Virus record (IMG/VR): IMGVR_UViG_3300007234_000086
Span: 1 to 25,667 of that record
Reading direction: 5' to 3' (one strand)
Length of the DNA stretch: 25,667 bases
From: a virus
The stretch's first letter is position 1. Each line of letters starts with the position of its first letter. Below the pieces are notes generated by a model. The model saw nothing but the letters and a program-made list of their open reading frames with translations, was not told the origin of the DNA and made no database searches. The position numbers and the translations under genes were made by a program. Positions 523-24,179 of the stretch are shown here, piece by piece.

Positions 523-1263
523 ATGCGTTTCTTAGTAGCCTCACCTCTGCCCAATGGATGGGTTAAACTCATATATCAGCATCAGGTAGGACGCAACGCC
601 AACGAGCCGTTGGAGATGAAGTTTAGGCGTGTGGCGATTGGTGTCTGTCTGGACACCCCATCGTTTGCTGTGGCCGTAGGAGAGCGCGTATATGAGCATA
701 ATGGTCGCAGTGAGCGTATCTATGTTGTTTTGGACGAGTTTGAGCAATCCGTGCCTGCGCGTATGTTTCCCAAGCTAATTGAATGGAAAGACCAGTATTT
801 AGCGCAATACATGTACAGCGCGTCAAGCCCTGCCGATCAAGTAGAGGCGTTGCGGCGAACAGATGGTTTGGTTCACTATAATGGCTTAACGCCTGGCGTA
901 GCGCAAAGCCGTTGGCCCACGTTTGTGCACATTATGCACACTGCATACCCGCGCACCCTGAACATACCTGACGAGAATGAGATGCACCGTGACTTGGAGT
1001 TAGTGCTGAGTGCGGAGGCAACAGACCCTCATTCGGGCATGACGCTTTATGGCGTAGATGCCGAGCCAATATACAGGCTTATGTTTCCTTACGATATACC
1101 GACCTTACAAACCCAAGCAGGCGTGCGTGGTGCACGGGTAACAGTATGCAAGGCGCTATGGTTAGCTGTTATGGGGTTAGAGCGATCATCGGGGGCATCA
1201 AGTTTAAATATGCACAGCGAGGACACGCATACACATCAGCCATCCAGCATAACGGGGTATTGA
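523..1263 (+). CDS. Unknown protein, possibly RNase H-like (terminase-nuclease-like)
   Basis: A 246-aa protein not recognised with confidence. Its middle follows the order of a large-terminase nuclease domain: a strand 'RRVAIGVCLDTPSFAVAVG' with an acidic residue at D44, a second strand 'RIYVVLDEFEQ', a helix, a strand leading into 'SASSPADQVEALRR' (about 99-112), and a C-terminal helix 'KALWLAVMGLE' (210-220) where terminases usually carry 'DALRYA'. The Asp expected in that last helix is absent, so if the relationship is real the protein may be inactive or divergent. The comparison matters because the terminase gene near the other end of the window (23196-24179) has no nuclease domain. The ribosome-binding site is weak (an A-rich stretch). 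The last 30 residues look disordered. This is inference. Confidence 0.35.
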   Translation: MRFLVASPLPNGWVKLIYQHQVGRNANEPLEMKFRRVAIGVCLDTPSFAVAVGERVYEHNGRSERIYVVLDEFEQSVPARMFPKLIEWKDQYLAQYMYSASSPADQVEALRRTDGLVHYNGLTPGVAQSRWPTFVHIMHTAYPRTLNIPDENEMHRDLELVLSAEATDPHSGMTLYGVDAEPIYRLMFPYDIPTLQTQAGVRGARVTVCKALWLAVMGLERSSGASSLNMHSEDTHTHQPSSITGY

Positions 1264-12466: not shown

Positions 12467-13506
12467 TGGCAAAGACACTGGGTACCATAATTAATGAGGG
12501 ATTAAAAGAGATAGGTGAGCCTGAGATTACTTCATTCACGGCGTTAAATATCCTTCAGCAACGGATGATAGAAGAAGCTAACGACACCGTAGAAGAGATT
12601 ATGACCTACGGTGACTTCAGGTGGGCGCTTAAACATGTTAACATCTTAACGGCGGCTGATATAACTACGGATAAAGCGGCGGTCACCAACGGATCAGCTA
12701 CGGTCACCTCTGTTACAAGTACTGCGGTGGATGCAGACTCTTTTACTGGCGCTACCACCGATATGTGGTTTAGGGTTACGGGCGATAATGTGTCTTATCC
12801 CATCGCCGCAGTAGACACCGACTCCTCGCCAGACACGCTTACGTTAGGTATCTCTGCTGCTACGGGATCACGCGTCTATGTAGGGACAACCAGCACAGCA
12901 GCAGGCTATCGCATATTTCAAGACACCTACGACCTATCGGTTACCACTGACATTGATGAGGTCAAGCATATTACATTTGGTGACGCAAGCTCATGGTCGC
13001 AAGGACTGACAGGCGTTACCCCGAATAACCAGATAGACTACGTTAACTTACAGACTATACTTAACGCTTCAGGCGGCGATTTGCATAGGAATACCAGTGG
13101 GCGTCCTCGCCTTGCTACCCTAATATCCAATGATGCGGACGAGAACAAACGTCTGTTGTTATGGCCTTTTCCCACCGAGCAGTATCTGGTAGATATATGG
13201 TATAAAGAGCTTATTGGCGAAAACACTACGTTTGGCACGAACCTCTTTGGCGGTGATGCGCCTGGCATTGCCTATCAGGCCGTTTCGCATCGAGTCAAGG
13301 TTGCTGCCTGTGTCTACGATGAAGACTACGATAGGGCATCACTGTATGAGCAACGCTACCAAGCGGCTATTGGCCATCTGATGCGCCGCGAGAACCGTCA
13401 AGAGATTGACGCGGGTTTCTCTATTAACACCTACCGCAGAGATTATGGCGTTACTATGCCTACGCGGAGTGGTTTGTGGTTTGACTCTAAAGGAGCCGTT
13501 CGGTAA
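12466..13506 (+). CDS. Head-tail adaptor / tail tubular A-like protein
   Basis: A 346-aa protein with the layout of podovirus adaptors (T7 gp11 / P22 gp4 type), which bind under the portal and begin the tail. The N-terminal helices 'TLGTIINEGLKEIGEPEITS' and 'RMIEEANDTVEEIMTYGDFR' followed by 'WALKH' are characteristic. An inserted beta-rich segment lies at about residues 60-150 ('AAVTNGSATVTSVTSTAVDA', later 'AGYRIFQDTYDLSVTTDIDE'), then a pocket-like 'RLLLWPFPTEQYLVDIWYKE' and a final helical part. The last residues ('SGLWFDSKGAVR') probably contact the next tail component. It is coupled to both neighbours through TAATG and precedes the propeller-type tail gene, the expected order. Confidence 0.75.
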   Translation: MAKTLGTIINEGLKEIGEPEITSFTALNILQQRMIEEANDTVEEIMTYGDFRWALKHVNILTAADITTDKAAVTNGSATVTSVTSTAVDADSFTGATTDMWFRVTGDNVSYPIAAVDTDSSPDTLTLGISAATGSRVYVGTTSTAAGYRIFQDTYDLSVTTDIDEVKHITFGDASSWSQGLTGVTPNNQIDYVNLQTILNASGGDLHRNTSGRPRLATLISNDADENKRLLLWPFPTEQYLVDIWYKELIGENTTFGTNLFGGDAPGIAYQAVSHRVKVAACVYDEDYDRASLYEQRYQAAIGHLMRRENRQEIDAGFSINTYRRDYGVTMPTRSGLWFDSKGAVR

Positions 13507-15044
13507 TGAGCCGCTGGCAATATGATATGCACTATCAGATAGGGCATGGCATTGATAGGAGGCTCAATCAGTCCAACCCTGAGTTTGACTCACAGGCCCT
13601 GTGGGAGATGCTCAATATAGTGTATACTAAAGACACCTCAGAGCCTGAGAAGATGAGAGGTGCTACGCAGATTGGAACGACTACGTTAGGCAATGCACGC
13701 GTTACGGGCCTCTTTGATTACGATGAAGGGTTGCGGCTGATAGGCACCGCTGCGGATGGTAAGATATATGAGTCTACAGGGACCGACTTCTCTCAATCGA
13801 CAGGCGGCACGGGCTTCAATACAGGGGCCGATGCGCGTTGGTTTGGTGGTATGTTTTACGGTGCTACTACGGCGGCTAACTTACTCTTGCTCTCTAACGG
13901 CGTAGACGCACCGCAGAAGTATACTAGCGGAGCGGGTGTCTCTGCTTTGGGTGGATCACCCCCCGCCACGGGTAAGTATGGCATCAGTTGGGGGGGCAGG
14001 TGGTGGTTAGCAACGGGCGATACCCTATTTTATTCTAAGGTCAACGATGCGGAGGTGTGGGCCGCTCCTGATGGGGGGTCCATACAAATAGACCGAGGCT
14101 CTGGCGATATAACGGGCTTATCGGTGTTTATGGGTAACTTAATGATCTTTAAGCGGCGTAAGATCTTACGACTGCTTCCCTCTACTAACCTAGCCTCTAC
14201 AGCGGTTAGGGAGGTGTCCTCGCGTATTGGCACTATGTCGCATGGGACTATAGCTGAAGCGCGCGGCGGCATCTGTATGTTTGCGTCAGACAACGGTATT
14301 GGGGGTATCTTTGCTACGTCATCTACGGGTGGCTTCTATGTTGATAACATCTCCGATGCCATTAAGCCTATCTTAGACCGCAGGAACCTACCTACCCAAT
14401 CTACGGCGTGGTCGATATATAATGAAGCACGGGACGAGTATTGGTATCAATATGGCACGACAGGCTCAACGCCTTCAGAGGGCGTCATCTGCAACACGGG
14501 CTTAGGCCGCAATAGGCTGCGATACACGCGGCACAATAGAGCAAACATATTGTGTGGGACCATATGGCGTAAATCGGGCGAAGATGTGCAAGTGGTGGGC
14601 ACAACGACAGGTAAGGTGCTACAGATGCACTCAGGTGATGCGTGGGACAACACCAATTACACGGGGCGCATTGTCACGCCAAGTCACACGCAAGGTCGCT
14701 TAGGTTGGATGAAACGATATAATCGCGTCTTTGCTGATTTTCTCACTAACGGCTCGTATCCCTTGACATTAAAGATATCTTTGGGGCGCAAAGACCTGCC
14801 TGGCCTGGGTGGTGAGACGCTAACATCAACGGCTGGAGGCGTTAGCGATGGATGGGGCGTGGGTGAATGGGGTGCTGCTTTATTTGGTGGAGCAGAGCAA
14901 CGCGGAGCGCATTTTCGTTTGACTAAAGCAAATCGGGGATATTATTGTAGGTTAACCTTTGAGACTACGGGCGCTAATCAGTGGTTTAAGGTTAATGGAT
15001 ACCACTTGGAACATAGGTTACGTGCAGAACAACCTGTTGCATAG
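13506..15044 (+). CDS. Tail beta-propeller / nozzle-like protein
   Basis: A 512-aa protein that resembles short-tail nozzle or plug proteins (P22 gp10, T7 gp12 class). Strand repeats fit a beta-propeller: 'VTGLFDYDEGLRLIGTAADG', 'LLLLSNGVDAPQKYTSGAG', 'GRWWLATGDTLFYSKVNDAE', then the family-like stretch 'LSVFMGNLMIFKRRKILRLL', followed by 'EVSSRIGTMSHGTIAEARGG' and 'CMFASDNGIGGIFATSSTGG', a pattern of a control that reads 'the data show, then state'. The C-terminal domain has large strands ('NRVFADFLTNGSYPLTLKIS'). In the proposed role it follows the adaptor and seals or extends the DNA channel. The start overlaps the previous stop (TAATG). Confidence 0.7.
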   Translation: MSRWQYDMHYQIGHGIDRRLNQSNPEFDSQALWEMLNIVYTKDTSEPEKMRGATQIGTTTLGNARVTGLFDYDEGLRLIGTAADGKIYESTGTDFSQSTGGTGFNTGADARWFGGMFYGATTAANLLLLSNGVDAPQKYTSGAGVSALGGSPPATGKYGISWGGRWWLATGDTLFYSKVNDAEVWAAPDGGSIQIDRGSGDITGLSVFMGNLMIFKRRKILRLLPSTNLASTAVREVSSRIGTMSHGTIAEARGGICMFASDNGIGGIFATSSTGGFYVDNISDAIKPILDRRNLPTQSTAWSIYNEARDEYWYQYGTTGSTPSEGVICNTGLGRNRLRYTRHNRANILCGTIWRKSGEDVQVVGTTTGKVLQMHSGDAWDNTNYTGRIVTPSHTQGRLGWMKRYNRVFADFLTNGSYPLTLKISLGRKDLPGLGGETLTSTAGGVSDGWGVGEWGAALFGGAEQRGAHFRLTKANRGYYCRLTFETTGANQWFKVNGYHLEHRLRAEQPVA

Positions 15045-15056
15045 GAGAGTATAGCA

Positions 15057-15446
15057 ATGCCAAATAATGATTTTAGAGATACACCTTCGCAGGGTGCTGG
15101 CGCGCAAAGGCCCCCCACACGAATGCCTGACCGAGCTTATTACCCTAGCCACATGGAAATACCGCCTAACTTAGAAATGGCGATGAGGCAAGGGTCCAAT
15201 GCTATGATTGGTGGTATTCCACATTGGATGGATGACGCAGGGCAGGTATTTACTTATTGGAATAATATCCCTGATAGATCGGAGGATATGTATGCTTCTG
15301 ATCCATATTATGGGTCAGGATGGACTGTAAGTAGTGACTATGGAGGTAATAACTATCAATCATACCCTTCGTCTTTGCAGGGAAGAAGTGTTTATCAAGA
15401 TATAAATGAGTGGAATCGTCGCAGGAGAGGTGGTAGTAATGGCTGA
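15057..15446 (+). CDS. Hypothetical Pro/Tyr/Asn-rich protein
   Basis: A 129-aa protein of unknown function with AGGAGAG at 15043-15049 as ribosome-binding site. It is rich in Pro, Tyr, Ser, Asn, Met and Gly and has little hydrophobic core ('TRMPDRAYYPSHMEIPPNLE', 'DPYYGSGWTVSSDYGGNNYQ'), so it may be largely disordered, with a basic end 'EWNRRRRGG'. Between the tail propeller gene and the large repeat-bearing gene, it is probably a small virion protein. It ends in an 8-nt ATGGCTGA overlap with the next start. Confidence 0.6.
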   Translation: MPNNDFRDTPSQGAGAQRPPTRMPDRAYYPSHMEIPPNLEMAMRQGSNAMIGGIPHWMDDAGQVFTYWNNIPDRSEDMYASDPYYGSGWTVSSDYGGNNYQSYPSSLQGRSVYQDINEWNRRRRGGSNG

Positions 15447-17319
15447 ATACGTAGATGATCCACCAGCACCTGAAGAATCGGATGATGGATTAGGACTACC
15501 TGAAGAGTGGGAAGGTAAAGATTGGGATAACGCCATGAAGCTGTTGGCGCGTGAAGCTGTTAATAATGCGCGCTTTCAGAATGCGGTGATGAAGTGGCGT
15601 ATGGAGAATGAATCACGATACCTGCCCTCTCTCTTGGGTGGCGCGCATCAATTCATGACGCAAGAGGCCAATCGTCCTGAGACTATGTTTGTCTCTCCTA
15701 TGTTTCAACCGCAGCATACTAATAGGCAGAGGACTTCTTTTGACCCCCTCTCTGACTTTGTAAGTTTTGAAGCTCCTGAGATATTAGACCCTGAGGGAAA
15801 GGGGCCTCCTCCTCCTCCTCCTCCTCCCGTTGGTCCATGGGTTCCTCCTCCTGGCTATATGGTCGGACCTGTTATGAAAAGTCCTCCTACTGTAGACGAT
15901 GAGAGAGACTTTACCTTTGATGCGGATGCATGGAAATCTGTTGGACAATTACCCCCACAGAAGACAGATGATGAGAGGGATATATCCGCCCTGATGATGG
16001 GCACACAAGGTCAGTTGCCCTATGGGGTGACTAGCACAGATGATGAGAGGGACTTTATTTTTGATGCAGATGCATGGCGATCTGTTGGACAATTACCCCC
16101 ACAGAAGACAGATGAAGATAGGGATATAGCCGCTCTAATGATGGGTACACAGGGTCAGTTGCCCTATGGGGCGACTAGCACAGATAATGAGTTAGACATA
16201 GCCGCCTTGATGATGGGCACACAGGGTCAGCTTCCCTATGGCGCGACTAGCACAGATAACGATGTAGATTTAGCTGCCCTTATGGCAGGAACTCAAGGGC
16301 AGTTGCCTTATGGCGCGACTAGCACAGATAATGAGTTAGATCTAGCCGCATTAATGGGAGCTACGCAAGGGCAGTTGCCTTATGGCGCAGTGGCCACCGA
16401 AGAGCCAATTGATCCCCAAGCGATGATGATGGGTACACAGGGTGCTTTGCCTTATCTCAATCGTCCAGAACAGGAGATGACCTTCGATGCAGATCTATGG
16501 CGTAATATGGACCCCTCTACCTTTAGTAGAGAGAATACATACGATAGATCGCCTTTAAGTGAAAGAGATGCGGCATTGGCGGCATATGAACTATTAGAGC
16601 GACCTGATACAAGCGTTTATGCTCGTGAAGCGGCTTTTGACCCCCGCGATGCATTTGCGGCATATGGTCAGATGGAGCGGGATGCAGCACCTCCCCCTTC
16701 GCTCTCCGCATATGAACGAGAGGCGACAATGGGGCCAGGGATGGCGGCAGAGGCATACACATTGCCTAATATGCAGATGGGCGCTGTAGCGGGTGGAGGT
16801 AGTGCTGGTGGCGCAGGTGCTGGAGGAGGTGGCGGTGCTGGCAATCAAGAGCGCGTGAGTCCAGTAGAGGGCATAGAGCGGTTTGTTAATGAGAACCCAC
16901 AGCTTATGGGTCAGGCAAACCTTATCCCCGCTTCGTTACGCGACTATATTACTACCAATACAGGTGTAGACGCCAGAGGCATGACCGCTGTGCAATTTGA
17001 CGATTGGATGAATGGCCGCGATGTGATAGTGCAGGGAGAGGTGATCCCCTCTAACCCGCGCATAGTGGATGCTATCAGAAAATCTGAGGGTGCAGAGAAC
17101 TTCCTCGCTGTCTTATCCACATGGGCTGAACGGCATAGAGAAGATGAGTTTCAGAGGCGTGGTGGGACGGTAGGATTTCAGGGTCAGGCTGGCGGTTTTC
17201 CTAAGATCGATTTGGGCATATTAAGTGGATATGTAACAGGGGAAGCACTGCCTCCCATCACACAAGCTGACATTGATGAGGCCAATGTTTCAAGTGAGCC
17301 TATTAGAAAGATAAAGTAA
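15439..17319 (+). CDS. Large repeat-bearing virion-type protein
   Basis: A 626-aa protein not known to me, starting at ATG 15439 with AGGAGAGG at 15423-15430. Regions in order: an acidic, helical N-terminus ('WDNAMKLLAREAVNNARFQN'); a Pro tract of eight residues; eight consecutive 24-residue repeats (residues about 152-343); a second repeated helical section (about 360-444); a Gly-rich linker; and a 150-residue C-terminal domain that starts near 'RVSPVEGIERFVNENPQL' and contains 'MTAVQFDDWMNGRDVIVQGE'. The repeats hold a fixed Asp and 'GQLPYG' and resemble linear binding motifs displayed many times. It lies between tail and ejection genes, so a virion or assembly role is likely. The stop overlaps a following ATG (TAATG). 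Confidence 0.7.
   Translation: MAEYVDDPPAPEESDDGLGLPEEWEGKDWDNAMKLLAREAVNNARFQNAVMKWRMENESRYLPSLLGGAHQFMTQEANRPETMFVSPMFQPQHTNRQRTSFDPLSDFVSFEAPEILDPEGKGPPPPPPPPVGPWVPPPGYMVGPVMKSPPTVDDERDFTFDADAWKSVGQLPPQKTDDERDISALMMGTQGQLPYGVTSTDDERDFIFDADAWRSVGQLPPQKTDEDRDIAALMMGTQGQLPYGATSTDNELDIAALMMGTQGQLPYGATSTDNDVDLAALMAGTQGQLPYGATSTDNELDLAALMGATQGQLPYGAVATEEPIDPQAMMMGTQGALPYLNRPEQEMTFDADLWRNMDPSTFSRENTYDRSPLSERDAALAAYELLERPDTSVYAREAAFDPRDAFAAYGQMERDAAPPPSLSAYEREATMGPGMAAEAYTLPNMQMGAVAGGGSAGGAGAGGGGGAGNQERVSPVEGIERFVNENPQLMGQANLIPASLRDYITTNTGVDARGMTAVQFDDWMNGRDVIVQGEVIPSNPRIVDAIRKSEGAENFLAVLSTWAERHREDEFQRRGGTVGFQGQAGGFPKIDLGILSGYVTGEALPPITQADIDEANVSSEPIRKIK
15805..15828 (+). repeat. CCT microsatellite encoding polyproline
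   Basis: Seven CCT codons and one CCC encode eight prolines in a row, shortly before the 24-residue repeat array, followed by further Pro-rich sequence ('VPPPGY'). Trinucleotide runs of this kind can change length by slippage, and consecutive prolines slow bacterial ribosomes unless EF-P helps. Confidence 0.85.
15892..16467 (+). repeat. Eight phased 72-nt repeats (24 aa each)
   Basis: Eight consecutive units of exactly 72 nt fall in frame from 15892. Two unit types are visible. Type A (units 1 and 3, starting at 15892 and 16036) reads 'DDERDFTFDADAWKSVGQLP'. Type B (units 2, 4, 5, 6, 7 and the divergent 8) reads 'TDNELDIAALMMGTQGQLPY'. Both start with an acidic cluster and share the 'GQLP' core, so A and B derive from one ancestor. 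The order A-B-A-B-B-B-B-B suggests an early AB duplication and later B expansion. A ninth, broken A-like piece ('EMTFDADLWRNM') follows. Confidence 0.9.
16516..16770 (+). repeat. Three ~30-aa degenerate repeats
   Basis: A second repeat class follows the first in the same protein. Units begin at about 16516, 16609 and 16699 and share Ser/Thr-x-aromatic, Arg-Glu, then a helical stretch ending in Ala-Ala-Tyr or Ala-Glu-Ala-Tyr: 'STFSRENTYD', 'TSVYAREAAFD' and 'LSAYEREATMG', followed by 'ALAAYELLERP', 'AFAAYGQMERD' and 'AAEAYTLP'. The third is shorter. These look like helix-turn modules. Confidence 0.65.
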
Positions 17320-17328
17320 TGGTAGGCT

Positions 17329-17448
17329 TTGCCGAGTCTGCAATTTGGCTTGAGTCCTCAAGAGGTTGCAGCGCTGATGACCAACATGCAAGCGCCTGTA
17401 GGTCGATCATTTTTAGGCGGGAAACGTGTTTACTGTAAATTTTGCTGA
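17329..17448 (+). CDS. Possible 39-aa peptide in ambiguous junction
   Basis: In the 106-nt stretch between two large genes, two short frames run on the same strand. One starts at TTG 17329 and reads as plausible protein ('PSLQFGLSPQEVAALMTNMQ', then 'APVGRSFLGGKRV'). The other starts at ATG 17319 in a TAATG overlap (ends 17438) but has an unlikely composition. The first has no convincing ribosome-binding site. It may be a small real gene, a frameshifted start of the next gene, or a fragment of a formerly longer gene. Confidence 0.3.
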   Translation: MPSLQFGLSPQEVAALMTNMQAPVGRSFLGGKRVYCKFC

Positions 17449-19033
17449 CCTTGGTGGGTCTTTTCGGGATAGCAAAGAAGACTTAAACCGTAGATATGAG
17501 TATTATTATGGTGATCCGTTAGATGATGAGTCTTTAACAACCCTATATGGTGGTGGAAGAATAAATGTATCATTTGTACCTAGTGGGGAACAGATAAAAG
17601 TATTTAACGGCACCAATAACTTTACCGCCAATGATGACAATACTGGAGGAAGTGACATGAGCGAAGTAACGGATACATGGACGAACTTTCTAACTAATAA
17701 TAACACGGGAGAGAATGGCGTAGGATATAGTGGGGCAGGATTTAATCCTACTTTTGGTCAATATAACGCTGATCGCGGCGGCAATGTATTGATGCCCACA
17801 CAGCAGACAGCCTATAGCCCTACTAACACGGGCGCCGTCAACTCGTCTGTAACGCAAACCAGTCAAACGGCTTATTCGCCTTATTCTATGGGCCAAACGG
17901 GATTTGCGCCCACTTCCAATCCATATACGCCACAAAATCAAACACAATTTAACCCTTACGCTCCCAATGCAGCGTTGGCAGGACTACAGCAAGCACCTAC
18001 GCAAGCAATGCCAAGTGCATCACCTACTTCAAATGCGAACCTGACTGCACTTGCCAGTACGCCTACAGCAGGGGTTTATAATACGCAACCTACGCAAAAT
18101 GCCATGGATGCGTATTTTAGTGGTCAGCAGACCTTGCCGCAGTTGCAAGCGCTTATGGATGAGATGGAGCGCAAGCAGGGGCTGGAAACGTCCATGCAAG
18201 AAGAGCAGATGACTAATAGAGGATTGGGCAACTCCACTTTCATGGATCAGGCCAGAGCAGACCTCGGATCGCGTCAGCGCAATGAGCTAATGAACCTCGC
18301 TACGCAAGCGACGATGCAGCTATTGCCTATGCAGGTGGGCCTCTCAGAGCAGATGCGTCAGGGGGACATGGCGCAGCGGAGCCAGCAAGTGCAAGAGCTA
18401 TTTGGTGCTCTTGGTCTTCAAGATCAGTTGGGTGGCTCCCAATTTGGGAGGGAGTTAGCCACGCGCCAGCAAGGGTTTAATGAGCTTATGGGGGCTATGG
18501 GGCTAGAGGAGCAGTTAGAGCAGGGCGAATTTGGGCGCAATGCAGCTATAGCGCAGTTAAGAGAGAACCTCATGCAGGGGCAGTTTGGCCGCGAAGCAAC
18601 ACAGGCACAACTGTTGGATCAGTTTAAGCAATCACAGTTTGGTAGGGATTTGAGCAGCACGCAACTGCAAGATGCTCTCAAGCAAAGTCAGTTTGGCAGG
18701 CAGTTACAACAGACGCAGCTTAATGACCAACTGCGCCAGAGTGGGTTTGCGAGAGAGGCGGCGGCAGCACAGCTACAGGATGCCCTCACACAAAGTCAAT
18801 TTGATCGTCAGCGTGCTGGATACGGTCAGCAATTTGATGAGTTTGCGCGCATGGCTGACCTGTATAACCAGAATCGTCAGATCGATTACAACCAACGTCT
18901 AGGTGGCTTTAATGCATTCTCTCAGGCGCTTGGGCGCTTGAGTCCTGCGGCCGTAAATCCAGGCCAAGCACCTGGCCCTGAACCATGGGAGTCGGGCCTA
19001 AATGCACTCTTGACCTACCTTGGGGGTAAATAG
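17426..19033 (+). CDS. Helical-repeat virion protein, ejection-like
   Basis: A 535-aa protein. The first ~80 residues are strand-like and acidic; the next ~150 are disordered and rich in Gln, Thr, Pro and Asn ('QTAYSPTNTGAVNSSVTQTS'); the remainder is a long helical region containing 18-residue repeats (18527-18796) based on 'QFGR'. Long amphipathic helical proteins at this point in podovirus-like operons are often internal ejection proteins (compare T7 gp14-gp16 or P22 gp7, gp16, gp20); that role is inferred. The start is uncertain: GTG 17426 follows AGGCGGGA, while ATG 17657 follows GGAGGA at 17645-17650 with ideal spacing and would give a 458-aa protein. Both could be used. Confidence 0.65.
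   Translation: MFTVNFADLGGSFRDSKEDLNRRYEYYYGDPLDDESLTTLYGGGRINVSFVPSGEQIKVFNGTNNFTANDDNTGGSDMSEVTDTWTNFLTNNNTGENGVGYSGAGFNPTFGQYNADRGGNVLMPTQQTAYSPTNTGAVNSSVTQTSQTAYSPYSMGQTGFAPTSNPYTPQNQTQFNPYAPNAALAGLQQAPTQAMPSASPTSNANLTALASTPTAGVYNTQPTQNAMDAYFSGQQTLPQLQALMDEMERKQGLETSMQEEQMTNRGLGNSTFMDQARADLGSRQRNELMNLATQATMQLLPMQVGLSEQMRQGDMAQRSQQVQELFGALGLQDQLGGSQFGRELATRQQGFNELMGAMGLEEQLEQGEFGRNAAIAQLRENLMQGQFGREATQAQLLDQFKQSQFGRDLSSTQLQDALKQSQFGRQLQQTQLNDQLRQSGFAREAAAAQLQDALTQSQFDRQRAGYGQQFDEFARMADLYNQNRQIDYNQRLGGFNAFSQALGRLSPAAVNPGQAPGPEPWESGLNALLTYLGGK
18527..18796 (+). repeat. Five phased 54-nt helical repeats (18 aa)
   Basis: Five successive units of 54 nt start at 18527, 18581, 18635, 18689 and 18743. 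Examples are 'QFGREATQAQLLDQFKQS', 'QFGRDLSSTQLQDALKQS' and 'QFGRQLQQTQLNDQLRQS'. Aromatic Phe followed by Arg begins each unit and Gln-Leu occurs in the middle. Eighteen residues equal five helical turns, so the Phe would line up on one face. Related but imperfect copies flank the run (about 18437 and 18797-18850). Confidence 0.85.
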
Positions 19034-19039
19034 TAGCAT

Positions 19040-20632
19040 ATGAACTTTTTTAAACAATTAGCGCGTGGCGCGGAGCGGGGTGTTCCTGCGTATCTAGCGG
19101 GACAGAAAGCAAAGCAAGAGCGCGAGGATCGATTAGCGCGTGAGAAAGAGGCGCGGGATCAATACGAAGCACAGTTAGTGCGTCAGCGCATTATGGCGGG
19201 AATACAAATAGCACAGAACTCAGGCGATCCCGATGCGATTGCCTCTGCTATACAGAAGGGCGTCGATGAAGGTGTACTTCCTTCAACGCCCAATAGACCT
19301 TCTATCTCATCTCCCAAAGATGCAGGGACGGGGACTGTTGATGAGCGAACGATAATCCCTGGGACTGAAACGACTGTAACCTCTACAAGCCCATATGCGG
19401 ATATGGATCCTCTTGCTCGTGGATCGGCACAAAGCGCGGCACGGGAGCAGCTTAGGAAAGATGAAGAATGGAGAATGAGGCAAGCTGAAGCACAGCGTAA
19501 AGCAGCAGAAGATGATAAGTGGACCGTACTGGGCGATGGAGTCTTATTTATGAATGTTCCTGATGGCCAAGGAGGATTTAAGCCTGTTTTTAATGTAGAT
19601 GGTCAAGTAGATAAAGTAACAAGCTATGATAAAGAAACGGGTATTGTTACATGGGATATAGCGGGTCCAAGGTTGGTTACGGATCCAAATATAATTAACC
19701 GCATTGATGAAGTTCGCAAAGCAAAAGTTCAAGAGAGGATATCTATTGAAGAGGTTAAGCAGGCAGCAAGGAGTGCGCTGGTAAACGAAAGGCAGCTTGC
19801 AAGAACGAATGAACAGACTGCTAGAGCGTATACTGGGGCTTTCAAACAAGCGGTAAAAGATTTACAGAGCGACAGTAATCCACTGCCTTTGGATGATGTC
19901 ATATCTAACTTTGAAGCAGTTATGGCGGCTTATCCTGATGTTGGAGAGCTTATACAAACGGCTAAGGTCGCTTTAAACAATCAATATAACCCACTAAAGT
20001 TGGGTTTCAGTGATGCACAACAAAAAGACTTAGCGGGAATCCGCACTTCACAGTATTATGCCGATAGACTAATCTCTCAATTAGATAATAAAGAAATACA
20101 GGACATCCTTGGCCCATTGCAGGGTCGATTGGCAAATATAGGTTCTATCCTTTCTGGGGGAGGGAGCTACACAGATAAGCAGAAACAGTTTCTCACTAGT
20201 TTATCGCGGTTAATGGATAATGCGCGGCGTGAAGCTACAGGCGCGGCAATATCCATGAAGGAACAAGATTTTTACCAAAATCTTATAGGCGATCAGTATA
20301 TGACTCCTGAAACTTTAAAGGCTGCACTATCGACTCTTATTGATGATTTAAATAGTGATGTGCAGGCTGTATATGAAACGGGTATTTTTAGTAGATATGG
20401 CGAACTAGATGCTACGGCAATAGAGGCAATGAATAAACACGTTATTTTTCGCCCTAGCTATCGAGAAAGTGAACCTAACTTCAACTTGGATTTAGATGAT
20501 GAGTCACTATTTGTGGAAGAGGGACCACCAACTCCTAGCGATGATCAAGTGTATGATAAGTCATTTGACTCTATCGCTAACCGTATAGTGCCACGAAAAA
20601 ACAACAGACCGCCACTTTTACAGCAGAGATGA
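19040..20632 (+). CDS. Probable internal virion (ejection) protein
   Basis: A 530-aa, mostly helical protein with no enzyme motif. Residues 1-60 form a charged helix ('YLAGQKAKQEREDRLAREKE'); a linker rich in Thr, Ser and Pro follows; a second coiled coil ('REQLRKDEEWRMRQAEAQRK') leads to a small strand-rich insertion ('DKWTVLGDGVLFMNVPDGQG'). The rest is helical, with an acidic, Pro-rich C-terminus. Large helical soluble proteins of this type between the tail and terminase genes are typical of podovirus ejection machinery, which is an inference from context. Codon use is more AT-rich from about 19540 than at the gene's start. The next gene starts 3 nt after the stop. Confidence 0.6.
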   Translation: MNFFKQLARGAERGVPAYLAGQKAKQEREDRLAREKEARDQYEAQLVRQRIMAGIQIAQNSGDPDAIASAIQKGVDEGVLPSTPNRPSISSPKDAGTGTVDERTIIPGTETTVTSTSPYADMDPLARGSAQSAAREQLRKDEEWRMRQAEAQRKAAEDDKWTVLGDGVLFMNVPDGQGGFKPVFNVDGQVDKVTSYDKETGIVTWDIAGPRLVTDPNIINRIDEVRKAKVQERISIEEVKQAARSALVNERQLARTNEQTARAYTGAFKQAVKDLQSDSNPLPLDDVISNFEAVMAAYPDVGELIQTAKVALNNQYNPLKLGFSDAQQKDLAGIRTSQYYADRLISQLDNKEIQDILGPLQGRLANIGSILSGGGSYTDKQKQFLTSLSRLMDNARREATGAAISMKEQDFYQNLIGDQYMTPETLKAALSTLIDDLNSDVQAVYETGIFSRYGELDATAIEAMNKHVIFRPSYRESEPNFNLDLDDESLFVEEGPPTPSDDQVYDKSFDSIANRIVPRKNNRPPLLQQR

Positions 20633-20635
20633 CCA

Positions 20636-23206
20636 ATGCCCACGACATATAGCTCTTTTGAAGAATTAGGCAAAAAAGTAAAGGAAGATAATCCGCGTGT
20701 AACGCTGCCAGATCGTGAAGCGGGGTTAAAGTTTGCTCAGAAGTTTCCCAATATGGCTACGGTCAAAGAGGTTGAGGATCAGGTAGATATCAAAGAAGAA
20801 CCATGGGGGCAGTCGCTAGTGCAAGGAGTGCAGGCTGTAGATAATGCTTTGCGTTCTTTGACTACAGAAATGCCCGTAGCAAAGCAATTTAATGAGTTTT
20901 CTCAAGGTTTTGCATCGGGTCTTTCTGCTGGTGCCACAAAGGAACTTGCAAAGCGATGGGATAATCCTCAAAATGAAAGTTTATTTCATACAGCAGGAGA
21001 GATAGTAGGCGAAATTGCTGGTCCTATGAATCTAATTCATAAAGCATGGGGAACAGCAAAAGCGGCCTCTATGCTTGGAAAAGCGGCGGTTGCTGGTGGA
21101 GAAGGTGTAACTACTGAAGGTATAAAGGGCGCAGTAAACTACGCACTTCGTCCAAGTTATGAAAAAGAGGATTTAGGTGCTCAAGCTCTTATTGGTGGCG
21201 GTGCCGCTCTTGGTATGGATTTAGGATTAAGAGGAACGGGTAAAGCTGTTGGGACTGTAGCAAGTAAGATATTGGGAGTAGCACCTACGCAGATTAATAA
21301 TGATTATGTCCAGTTTATGCGTAAGCATGGTCAAAAAGTTATCCCTACGATGGCTGCACCAGAAAGCCAAGGGGCTAGGCGTGTTTTGCGATGGATGCGC
21401 GAATCGGCGGGTAGTGCAAATAAACTTCGTGGCGCAGCGCAAGAATTAATGCAGTATACTACTGATCAAAAAAATAGATTCGTTGCACATTTGGGCGGTG
21501 AGCAGATTACTTCCTCCAAGGCGGGTCGTGCGTTGGTGCAGTCATTTAAAGAAACGCATGATGCACTAAAAAGTGATGCGGCAGAAATATATCGTGATAT
21601 GATTCGCGCTAATCCAAAAATCGGGAAAATGCCTATACAGGCTAATGCTGATGTAATGGTCCCTATGAATGATGGATCAATTAAGCGCATAAATATGTTA
21701 GAAACCTTGGATGATGCTGTAAAAGAATTGCGTCCTGAAGATCCAAATGAATTAAAAAAACTGAAAAAGCAAGTGGATAGATTATTAGGTCGAGCGAAGG
21801 AGGCCAAAAATCCACAAGCCGTAACAATGAAAAAAGAACTGCGCCCTCTCCGCTCAAAAACACTCCAGAAAGATATAAGTGAACAGCAATATACACCTGA
21901 AGGTGGATTTGTCAGGAAGCGCTATAAAGCATCCGCATCAGGTGAAGAGGGCGATTTAACCCCTGAAGTACGTTCTCGCCTTAGATTAGATCCCACTGCC
22001 AAAATTGGCAATACGACTCTATATACACCTACAGATGTCCCATACGGCACATCCGCAGATATAGGAGGCGCTCCATATTCAACCCGATACGGACAAACGC
22101 AGGGTGGATCGCGCTCTGCTATGCAAGATCCAACAAATCCTGCTGTACCAGCGGGTCAAGTTTCGCAAGAAGCATTAGAGGCTGCTGGAGCTAAAGTTCG
22201 TCAGCGGTATGAAGAGGTGGAAGTGCCTCAGTATATGACGTATGAGCAATGGTGGGAGGAATTGCAAACTATTGGTAATTTAATAGGAGAGGCAAAGGGG
22301 CGTAATATGCCAGGTGTTGCTGGTAAATTAGGCCGCGTATATGGAGACTTGCAAGATGCGTTAGATTGGACAGCAGAGCAAACTCAGCCTGGTTGGTCTG
22401 AACCGATACGTTTAGCTCGACAAAAATATCGTATGTATAAGACGTTTGCTGATAATCCAATCGTTGACCGCATCGCTAAACTTGGTAATATGAAATTGCG
22501 CGGAGGTAAGGAAACCATTGAAAAGTTTAGCAATATTGCAGGTGAGATGTTTAAAGATGTAGATGTAATACGCCAAGCAAAACAAATTATCCCACCAGAA
22601 CAATTTGCAATGCTTCGATCTGCTCATATACAAGACCTTATCTGGAAAGCTCGTGCCACAGGAGACATTAAAGAGGGCAATGTAATAGAGCGCCTTGATT
22701 TTGATAAGCTCATTAATGCCATAGAACATCCTGGAAATACGAAGCGTGGTGGTCTTAATGGAGAGTATTGGGAAGAGCTTTTTAGTGATGAAGGATTTAC
22801 AGATGTTTTCGGTCAACCTGTTCAGTATAATGGTGGCGGTGCAGAGCTTGGTGAACAAATGAAAGAGTTAGTGCGCCTAGCCGCCGTCACAGATATACAA
22901 GCAGGATCATTAGCCCCAGGATCGGAAGGTTTTACATCTGCCATGGCAGAGAATTTTGCGCCTGGTGTAATAGTGAAAGACCCCGTAGCAAATTTTAATA
23001 TGCTTGAAGGGCTATTAGCAAATATTCTCACTACTAAGAAATTTGCCAGAGACTTTTTTGAGCAAGACATAGATAAAAACATATATTTACAAGGCAAGTT
23101 TAAAGGGGAGTTGCCTGACTTCTTAACTGCAAAAGATGATTTAGTGCAACGAGGTATGCGTAGCACATTAACGAATATGCTGACAGGAGCCGCTGGTGTT
23201 AGGTGA
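20636..23206 (+). CDS. Large internal virion / DNA ejection-like protein
   Basis: An 856-aa protein, the largest in the window, not identified to family. The N-terminal ~110 residues are helical and charged. Residues about 120-215 are Gly/Ala rich and moderately hydrophobic ('GEIVGEIAGPMNLIHKAWGT', later 'GAQALIGGGAALGMDLGLRG'), like membrane-inserting segments of ejection proteins. A long coiled-coil region follows (to about 400), then a mixed section ('YTPEGGFVRKRYKASASGEE') and a helical C-terminus. I see no lysozyme or transglycosylase motif. By position (third large helical gene before the terminase) it may form a channel across the host envelope. It overlaps terL by 11 nt. Confidence 0.6.
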   Translation: MPTTYSSFEELGKKVKEDNPRVTLPDREAGLKFAQKFPNMATVKEVEDQVDIKEEPWGQSLVQGVQAVDNALRSLTTEMPVAKQFNEFSQGFASGLSAGATKELAKRWDNPQNESLFHTAGEIVGEIAGPMNLIHKAWGTAKAASMLGKAAVAGGEGVTTEGIKGAVNYALRPSYEKEDLGAQALIGGGAALGMDLGLRGTGKAVGTVASKILGVAPTQINNDYVQFMRKHGQKVIPTMAAPESQGARRVLRWMRESAGSANKLRGAAQELMQYTTDQKNRFVAHLGGEQITSSKAGRALVQSFKETHDALKSDAAEIYRDMIRANPKIGKMPIQANADVMVPMNDGSIKRINMLETLDDAVKELRPEDPNELKKLKKQVDRLLGRAKEAKNPQAVTMKKELRPLRSKTLQKDISEQQYTPEGGFVRKRYKASASGEEGDLTPEVRSRLRLDPTAKIGNTTLYTPTDVPYGTSADIGGAPYSTRYGQTQGGSRSAMQDPTNPAVPAGQVSQEALEAAGAKVRQRYEEVEVPQYMTYEQWWEELQTIGNLIGEAKGRNMPGVAGKLGRVYGDLQDALDWTAEQTQPGWSEPIRLARQKYRMYKTFADNPIVDRIAKLGNMKLRGGKETIEKFSNIAGEMFKDVDVIRQAKQIIPPEQFAMLRSAHIQDLIWKARATGDIKEGNVIERLDFDKLINAIEHPGNTKRGGLNGEYWEELFSDEGFTDVFGQPVQYNGGGAELGEQMKELVRLAAVTDIQAGSLAPGSEGFTSAMAENFAPGVIVKDPVANFNMLEGLLANILTTKKFARDFFEQDIDKNIYLQGKFKGELPDFLTAKDDLVQRGMRSTLTNMLTGAAGVR

Positions 23207-24179
23207 TGCCCCCATAGTCACCCTCATGGAGGAGGAGTATTACCTTGACGATACGGGTGAGTTGATTGCCTTTGAGGATCATCAGCGCCGTATCCTCAAT
23301 GAGATCTTCACGCCTAACGCGGATGGTAAGATCGGCTATGAGACGGTGGTGTGGTCTACCCCTAAGAAGGAGGGTAAGACAGGCGTGGCAGGGGCGGTAG
23401 GGTATGGCTTTTCTCGCATCTTTGGCGGCAACGCCTTCTCTCTTGCCAACGATAAGGAGCAAGCGGGAGAGCGTATGTTTGACCGTGTGGTGAGCAACTT
23501 TAGACACATGAAAAACAAGAATTCTGATCTCTTTGAGTCGATCATCAAAGAGGACTACCATGAGCGCATCACCAAGAACAACATGATTGAGTTCAACAAT
23601 ACAGGACAGATCAACCCTGGGCCGCACTGGTTAAAGTTTGTTGCAGCAGATTACGCAGGCGAGGCGGGCGGTAGACCTGCTATGACCTGTTTTGATGAGT
23701 TGTGGGCCTACAAGGGCGATAGGATGGCGAGGCTATGGGATGAGTTCCAACCTCTGTCTATCATGCCTGTATCATTGCGGTTTATCACCACGTATGCGGG
23801 GTGGTATGGAGAATCTGACTTACTATGGTCTATCTATGAGACGGTAGTGCAGCCAGATAGCTACGATCCATTGGTGAAGCACGGGACCAGAGTTCCTGGC
23901 CTAGAGGACTTACCAGTGTATCAGTATGGAGAGAAGTATCTGCCTGGCTCCTATCTGGTCTATTGGGACCATGAGAATAGGATGCCATGGAAATCATTCG
24001 AGTATCTGGAAGGACGCAGGAAAGATCCAGCGGTCAAAGGCCGTGAGGCTGAGTATCGGCGCTTATGGCGCAATGAGTGGACCACGGGCATGGATGCGTT
24101 TTTATCACCAGAGCTTGTTGATGAACTGATGCAATTAGGCCATGACCATGGCTTAGTTAATAACATGGAGAATTGGTAA
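23196..24179 (+). CDS. terL: Large terminase, ATPase domain only
   Basis: A 327-aa packaging motor ATPase. A Walker-A-like 'TPKKEGKTG' (55-63) resembles 'PRKNGKS' of Terminase_1-type proteins, followed by 'AFSLANDKEQAGERMFDRVV' and a Walker B 'PAMTCFDELW' with D167 and E168 (strand-Asp-Glu). The coupling segment 'VSLRFITTYAGWYGESDLLW' lies at 192-211. The protein ends about where the RNase H-like nuclease domain would begin, after 'AFLSPELVDELMQLGHDHGL'. Full-length large terminases are usually 450-600 aa, so this is an ATPase-only form. GTG 23196 has AGGAG at 23185-23189; ATG 23226 is a shorter alternative. It overlaps the upstream gene by 11 nt and the fibre gene by one base (TAATG). Confidence 0.85.
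   Translation: MLGDAPIVTLMEEEYYLDDTGELIAFEDHQRRILNEIFTPNADGKIGYETVVWSTPKKEGKTGVAGAVGYGFSRIFGGNAFSLANDKEQAGERMFDRVVSNFRHMKNKNSDLFESIIKEDYHERITKNNMIEFNNTGQINPGPHWLKFVAADYAGEAGGRPAMTCFDELWAYKGDRMARLWDEFQPLSIMPVSLRFITTYAGWYGESDLLWSIYETVVQPDSYDPLVKHGTRVPGLEDLPVYQYGEKYLPGSYLVYWDHENRMPWKSFEYLEGRRKDPAVKGREAEYRRLWRNEWTTGMDAFLSPELVDELMQLGHDHGLVNNMENW

Follow-up and report, generated by a model that had tools for sequence, protein, structure and literature searches.

We identified a tandem array of eight repeat units, each of exactly 72 nt or 24 residues, within a single open reading frame (g1) of the window, by which we mean the whole stretch of DNA analysed, a 25.7-kb virus record that is probably a fragment. 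The record belongs to a group of uncultured short-tailed phages (podoviruses), and g1 is the second gene past the tail nozzle gene, ahead of ejection-like genes (Table 1). In relatives, the repeat peptide itself has been replaced, in g1 or in the next gene (g2), which the preliminary description of this DNA had not foreseen; its observation of the array is confirmed, and its interpretation is partly supported, the repeated binding sites that it proposed for a partner on or in the virion being conjectural. We give an even chance to the reading in which g1 is an acidic, disordered protein of the virion, part of the nozzle-ejection module, with repeats that would present a short motif many times over for docking.

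Table 1. Features of g1, its array and its surroundings (positions in the window, except where another contig is named).
Feature	Position	Strand	Basis or remark
Conserved gene upstream of portal	523-1263		
Tail nozzle / head-closure protein	13506-15044	+	predicted fold matches: Pa223 tail 9nwi (E 2e-22), VP1, P22 gp10 8eap (E 7e-15), SU10, T7 gp12
g0, small gene between nozzle and g1	15057-15446	+	no family match
g1, array-carrying gene, 626 aa, net charge -52	15439-17319	+	open frame; start overlaps stop of preceding small gene
g1 N-terminal conserved region, residues 27-111, probable anchor	15517-15771	+	34% identity to sister group, hhalign E 5.8e-10; helix in model
Poly-proline stretch GPPPPPPPPVGPWVPPPGY	15808-15861		directly before array, in g1
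Array, eight 24-residue units A-B-A-B-B-B-B-B'	15892-16467	+	direct reading, TRF, self-similarity score
Unit 1, type A, VDDERDFTFDADAWKSVGQLPPQK	15892-15963	+	
Unit 2, type B, TDDERDISALMMGTQGQLPYGVTS	15964-16035	+	
Unit 3, type A, TDDERDFIFDADAWRSVGQLPPQK	16036-16107	+	91% nt identity to unit 1
Unit 4, type B, TDEDRDIAALMMGTQGQLPYGATS	16108-16179	+	88% nt identity to unit 2
Units 5, 6 and 7, type B, TDNELDIAALMMGTQGQLPYGATS, TDNDVDLAALMAGTQGQLPYGATS, TDNELDLAALMGATQGQLPYGAVA	16180-16395	+	
Unit 8, diverged type B, TEEPIDPQAMMMGTQGALPYLNRP	16396-16467	+	GALP for GQLP
Ninth, A-like remnant, EQEMTFDADLWRNM	16468-16509	+	direct reading; FDADL found; three residues out of phase
Further repeat, two loose copies, ERDAALAAYELLERP / PRDAFAAYGQMERD	16558-16740		in g1, beyond array; much decayed
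Gly-rich linker	about 16791-16842		in g1, after array
g2, own 18-residue repeat (about 18503-18808) and domain conserved in all groups	17426-19033	+	
g3, probable ejection-block protein	19040-20632	+	position only; relatives at same place
g4, probable ejection-block protein, P22 gp16-like slot	20636-23206	+	1 of 5 family members matches P22 gp16 family
Terminase large subunit	window 23196-24179; L067 17219-18211; L069 19284-20252; L125 2397-3371; L127 4310-5284; L128 9613-10602		

The eight units and their order, as set out in the preliminary description, were borne out by direct reading, by TRF on the DNA (period 144, score 484; period 72, score 257) and by self-similarity of the g1 protein, with a score of 73 at a lag of 48 compared with 5.5 for the best of 40 shuffles. 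We retained the unit phase of that description for all unit sequences. Its statement that the phase never breaks holds over the eight units and fails only at the ninth, A-like remnant. Unit 8 is diverged, with 44-52% nucleotide identity to the other B units. Each B unit consists of an acidic head, DIAALMM, GTQGQLPYG and a tail, ATSTD. The two unit types had been described as sharing an acidic head and GQLP. The head, DERD, is indeed common to both, but GQLP lies at residues 16-19 in A and 14-17 in B, an offset of two residues, and the DNA of A and B units is only 31-38% identical, which is near chance; thus A and B are not simple variants, nor clearly versions of one unit. From the unit sequences, a 48-residue A-B pair was evidently duplicated, with later amplification of B alone. 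A control scan of the 23 genes of the window identified arrays in g1 and g2 only. Elsewhere in g1 we noted a poly-proline stretch, a Gly-rich linker and the two decayed copies of a further repeat.

The same eight units are present in a second contig, IMGVR_UViG_3300006802_000608 (g1 protein 100% identical, DNA 99.9% over 15.7 kb), the sample of which may not be independent of that of the window. As the units are also distinct enough in DNA for an assembler to separate, an assembly artefact is unlikely.

For the g1 protein, no recognised domain or family was found in Pfam, PHROGs or the phage collection, in agreement with the earlier remark that no described family with such an array was known. 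Searches of named phages yielded no homologs, and the N-terminal region as a probe matched only contigs already known as relatives. Weak Pfam matches over the array (AP3D1, DUF3429) were below cut-off and were dismissed. The AlphaFold2 model has reasonable confidence only at a helix, residues 29-77, with a pLDDT of about 30-40 over residues 150-476, which include nearly all of the array (about 30 for array residues); the underlying alignment is shallow, with ten proteins, so that low confidence fits disorder without proving it. The array and the middle of g1 are accordingly only predicted to be disordered, and the array would place several copies of one conserved short motif in such a region, as expected of multivalent short linear motifs. 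Gly-X-Y triplets are absent from the 24-residue unit, which is therefore not collagen-like. All 18 g1 proteins examined are acidic, with net charges from -33 to -149.

We investigated the gene neighbourhood of the array. Upstream of g1 lie genes for a portal-like protein, a capsid protein, an SU10-type adaptor and the nozzle, and downstream g2, g3 and g4, followed by terminase and fiber. The nozzle profile had no match to PDB sequences, and the nozzle was identified from fold comparison alone. Members of the g2 family have weak matches to phrog_21132, 'DNA ejection' (4 of 9 members, E 0.008 to 0.1, best 0.0077), and one of the five members of the g4 family has a weak match to phrog_770, the P22 gp16 family 'DNA transfer protein' (E 0.0014). 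Direct profile comparison (hhalign) with P22 gp7, gp20 and gp16 found nothing, so that g2 to g4 form an ejection block, by gene order and size, only probably. Lying in the block that follows the nozzle / head-closure gene (from the fold match and the gene order of P22), g1 is placed like an ejection protein; it has no sequence or profile similarity to known ejection proteins, and we thus do not file it as a member. The nozzle and ejection-like genes nearby lend support to the virion setting proposed earlier, and we infer the place of g1 itself in the virion from this gene context only. The nozzle and capsid proteins as probes found no match in bacterial and archaeal genomes, and thus gave no clue to the host; g4 as a probe found no match.

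Two further observations concern these neighbours. In g2, each unit of the 18-residue repeat (QFGRExxxxQLxxxLxQG) amounts to five turns of helix, and the sister group has this repeat too. The large subunit of the terminase is short, at 322-330 aa in all relatives read, and aligns only to a central part of the PHROG profile (at most positions 191-471 of 812), as though nothing but the ATPase portion were present; the nuclease half might be supplied by the conserved gene upstream of the portal, a role for which family searches gave no support.

Capsid and nozzle searches identified dozens of related uncultured contigs, in which the repeats of g1 and g2 differ between groups. In a sister group, with a nozzle 71% identical to that of the window, g1 retains the N-terminal region and carries a 14-residue repeat, NPTLLDEGMRGLVT. 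This repeat has 11 units in contig L013 and 13 in L014. The two contigs are nevertheless 99.4% identical: their nozzle genes differ at three positions over the full length, and the 648 nt preceding the array at two; both are from one assembly, and repeat collapse may explain the unequal unit numbers. The suggestion that copy number varies among related phages is thus borne out by these relatives, but they carry a different repeat, and the sole other contig with the repeat of the window also has eight units. In L069 (nozzle 56% identical), g1 carries the 10-residue YQAPVYDAPD plus other repeats; in the more distant L125 (45%), it carries a 43-residue array of two alternating parts, NPYEFISGMGLDPSLTSRT and EEDVDFSDYIRAMRGMREFDDDGP, resembling the A-B arrangement of the window; and in L128 the g1 repeat is SGDFGMPDFGDLG. 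Finally, in a clade at 41% identity (the 41% clade), g1 is mostly without a long array, which we counted against the docking reading, and g2 has one instead, of a 19-residue VANPAAMADRPDVPPVVPP, a 16-residue TTNVDPTSLVPSATYP or NPYETTQGNFSGTGG. The reading frame is preserved in every array examined.

The g2 proteins are homologous across the groups compared. For g1, sequence homology is solid inside each of two groups, whereas between the two it is borderline (P 0.005 for the N-terminus of the window and sister group against the 41% clade), so that the correspondence to that clade rests on position; shared position, acidity and architecture suggest that the g1 proteins are one family. Homology between the C-terminal parts of g1 from different clades, first suggested by visual comparison, was not supported, the single low E-value arising from a Gly-rich linker. 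The B units of the window and g2 of the 41% clade share a suggestive sequence motif (DIAALMMGTQG and DVEAMMQSTLGG), first spotted by eye, which was equalled at best in 0 of 200 shuffles and in the other cases in 2-9 of 200. Searching all viral contigs for the DNA pattern of GTQGQLPYG recovered only the near-identical second contig as a true match; three further matches lie in frames full of stops and were rejected as chance. The motif is thus specific to the lineage of the window, as the replacement of the repeat in relatives also implies, and its lack of conservation beyond that lineage was likewise counted against docking.

We additionally noted an EF-hand-like loop, DADGDGxVxxxEL, in g2 of the 41% clade (L028 6355-7818, L080 3798-5339, L082 5890-7383, L083 5655-7217), with Pfam matches below cut-off; the loop is a possible calcium site. 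Among the phages fetched for comparison, none had a gene after the nozzle with an array of comparable strength. The only strong array among them is in a structural-region protein upstream of the nozzle of the distant phage MW202601 from Manatee Spring (L105 6844-8361), with a near-perfect 18-residue repeat, ALPAGTNNIGDVDVLTLP.

The preliminary description had proposed that the repeats form a peptide array around a conserved linear motif, and we found that selection maintains GTQGQLPYG, with drift in the remainder of the unit. Comparison of the B units with one another showed differences at 57% of synonymous and 16% of nonsynonymous sites over the whole unit, and at 64% and 4%, respectively, over GTQGQLPYG, giving a pN/pS of 0.06 for the motif, compared with 0.36 for the head and 0.74 for the tail. 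None of 1000 neutral simulations was as low as observed, either for the motif or for the whole unit. From these differences the B units are judged to be old, and the pattern points to selection on the peptide, in the g1 frame, since gene conversion would also have erased synonymous differences. The units of the window were taken in fixed phase, none being chosen by pattern; for most other arrays the units were picked by protein pattern, which lowers pN, and the selection claim thus rests on the window.

This focused constraint favours the docking reading, as do the place of g1 after the nozzle and before genes with weak DNA ejection and DNA transfer matches, the arrays of other peptides at the same place in relatives, the copy-number difference, the acidity and the low pLDDT. 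The conserved N-terminal helix would probably anchor g1, followed by a long acidic disordered middle holding the array and by a C-terminal part. Each B unit would display one GTQGQLPYG behind the acidic head and DIAALMM, offering the same docking peptide five or six times, such that several weak contacts might hold or guide one partner on a chain flexible enough for packaging or tail passage. Candidate partners would be the nozzle, another of the ejection proteins or a factor of the host envelope. Copies may be gained or lost as units recombine, and over longer times a whole unit may be swapped for another.

It is possible, if somewhat doubtful, that the array is instead a flexible spacer or length ruler, an unfolded linker setting the reach from the N-terminal anchor to the C-terminal part of g1, for which only length and an acidic, Gly-, Gln- and Pro-rich composition would matter and repeats would be the way in which linkers grow and shrink. 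The predicted disorder, the copy-number difference, the exchange of the peptide between lineages with acidity and place retained, and the poly-proline and Gly-rich stretches flanking the array are all consistent with this. However, a spacer needs no nine particular residues kept in five units whose synonymous sites are near saturation. A pure spacer thus accounts for the replacement between lineages and leaves the focused constraint on the units of the window unexplained; the selection pattern is best fitted by a motif-presenting disordered acidic virion protein, and a changing partner would reconcile the two.

We consider it distinctly unlikely that g1, or its repeats, lies exposed outside the tail and binds the cell surface, with the peptide changing with the receptor. 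The fast turnover of repeats between lineages and the position of g1 near the nozzle and not far from the fiber gene would fit such a role, but the fiber of these phages is encoded by a gene of its own, g1 and g2 belong to the ejection block, g1 has no predicted beta-rich or trimeric fold, and the fiber moves in other clades while g1 to g4 stay together. In several clades (L004, L015, L016, L019, L020, L033, L070-L077 and L088-L096) the fiber gene directly follows the nozzle and the g2-g4 block, where located, is in another part of the contig; that of the window lies between nozzle and fiber. Very unlikely, in our estimate, is an ejected cargo that, early in infection, would imitate nucleic acid or tie up a host factor with its acidic disordered core: the strong, conserved acidity and the ejection-block position would suit it, but charged residues occur throughout the protein, GTQGQLPYG, the best-conserved segment of the unit, carries no charge, and known counter-defence families were unmatched in Pfam or PHROGs. 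Neutral repeat expansion or an assembly artefact without function is extremely improbable, for although tandem repeats expand readily and all relatives are metagenome contigs, neutral evolution is rejected by the site ratios, the second contig has the same units and the frame is kept throughout.

The slot of g1, soon after the nozzle / head-closure gene, resembles that of the P22 tail needle gp26, the first gene after gp10. The needle is a folded coiled-coil trimer; g1, in contrast, is predicted to be mostly disordered, and profile comparison of the two found nothing. The order and size of the genes that follow the nozzle are similar to those of P22 gp7/gp20/gp16 and T7 gp14/gp15/gp16 (PMC8954989 for review), and the weak matches of the g2 and g4 families may be a further likeness to podovirus ejection proteins. 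T7 gp15 has been modelled with disordered C-terminal arms during ejection (PMC8954989). Unlike g1, P22 gp7, gp20 and gp16 are not acidic and have no tandem array, and profile comparison gave no link between them and g1. In-frame repeats whose number differs between relatives also occur in phage structural genes for collagen-like proteins (PMC3368898) and in Xanthomonas phage tail fibers, which have domain duplications (PMC2248197). Those are fiber-type proteins with one repeat type, whereas g1 and g2 are a non-fiber pair in which arrays persist while the peptide is replaced. Neither the array of the window, nor the g1 family, nor such a pattern, in which the slot is conserved and the repeats are exchanged, was found in Pfam, PHROGs, 50,697 phage records or the literature searched; that literature also gave no disordered repeat arrays in ejection modules. 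Repeat-bearing phage proteins are already known, but the arrays of g1 and g2 are a new element in the picture of podovirus ejection proteins.

Rapid change in phages is usually sought in tail fibers; here it affects probably disordered proteins beside the injection machinery, in which the repeat core is exchangeable and the frame around it conserved. Should the arrays serve for docking, the binding peptide displayed would differ from lineage to lineage, and the partner could be found by peptide pull-down. The window, L014, L069, L125, L078 and L028 form a natural series varying in repeat sequence and copy number, which makes the choice between spacer and binding site testable. A broader proposal, which we regard as unlikely, is that this uncultured podovirus group keeps a two-gene 'repeat slot' (g1/g2) by the nozzle, in which an array is required as such and the peptide is reinvented in each lineage, probably matching a partner that itself changes fast, for instance a host envelope protein used in DNA entry. 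If true, such a slot would represent a rapidly evolving device for host interaction that has not been described before, located in the injection apparatus and not in the tail fibers.
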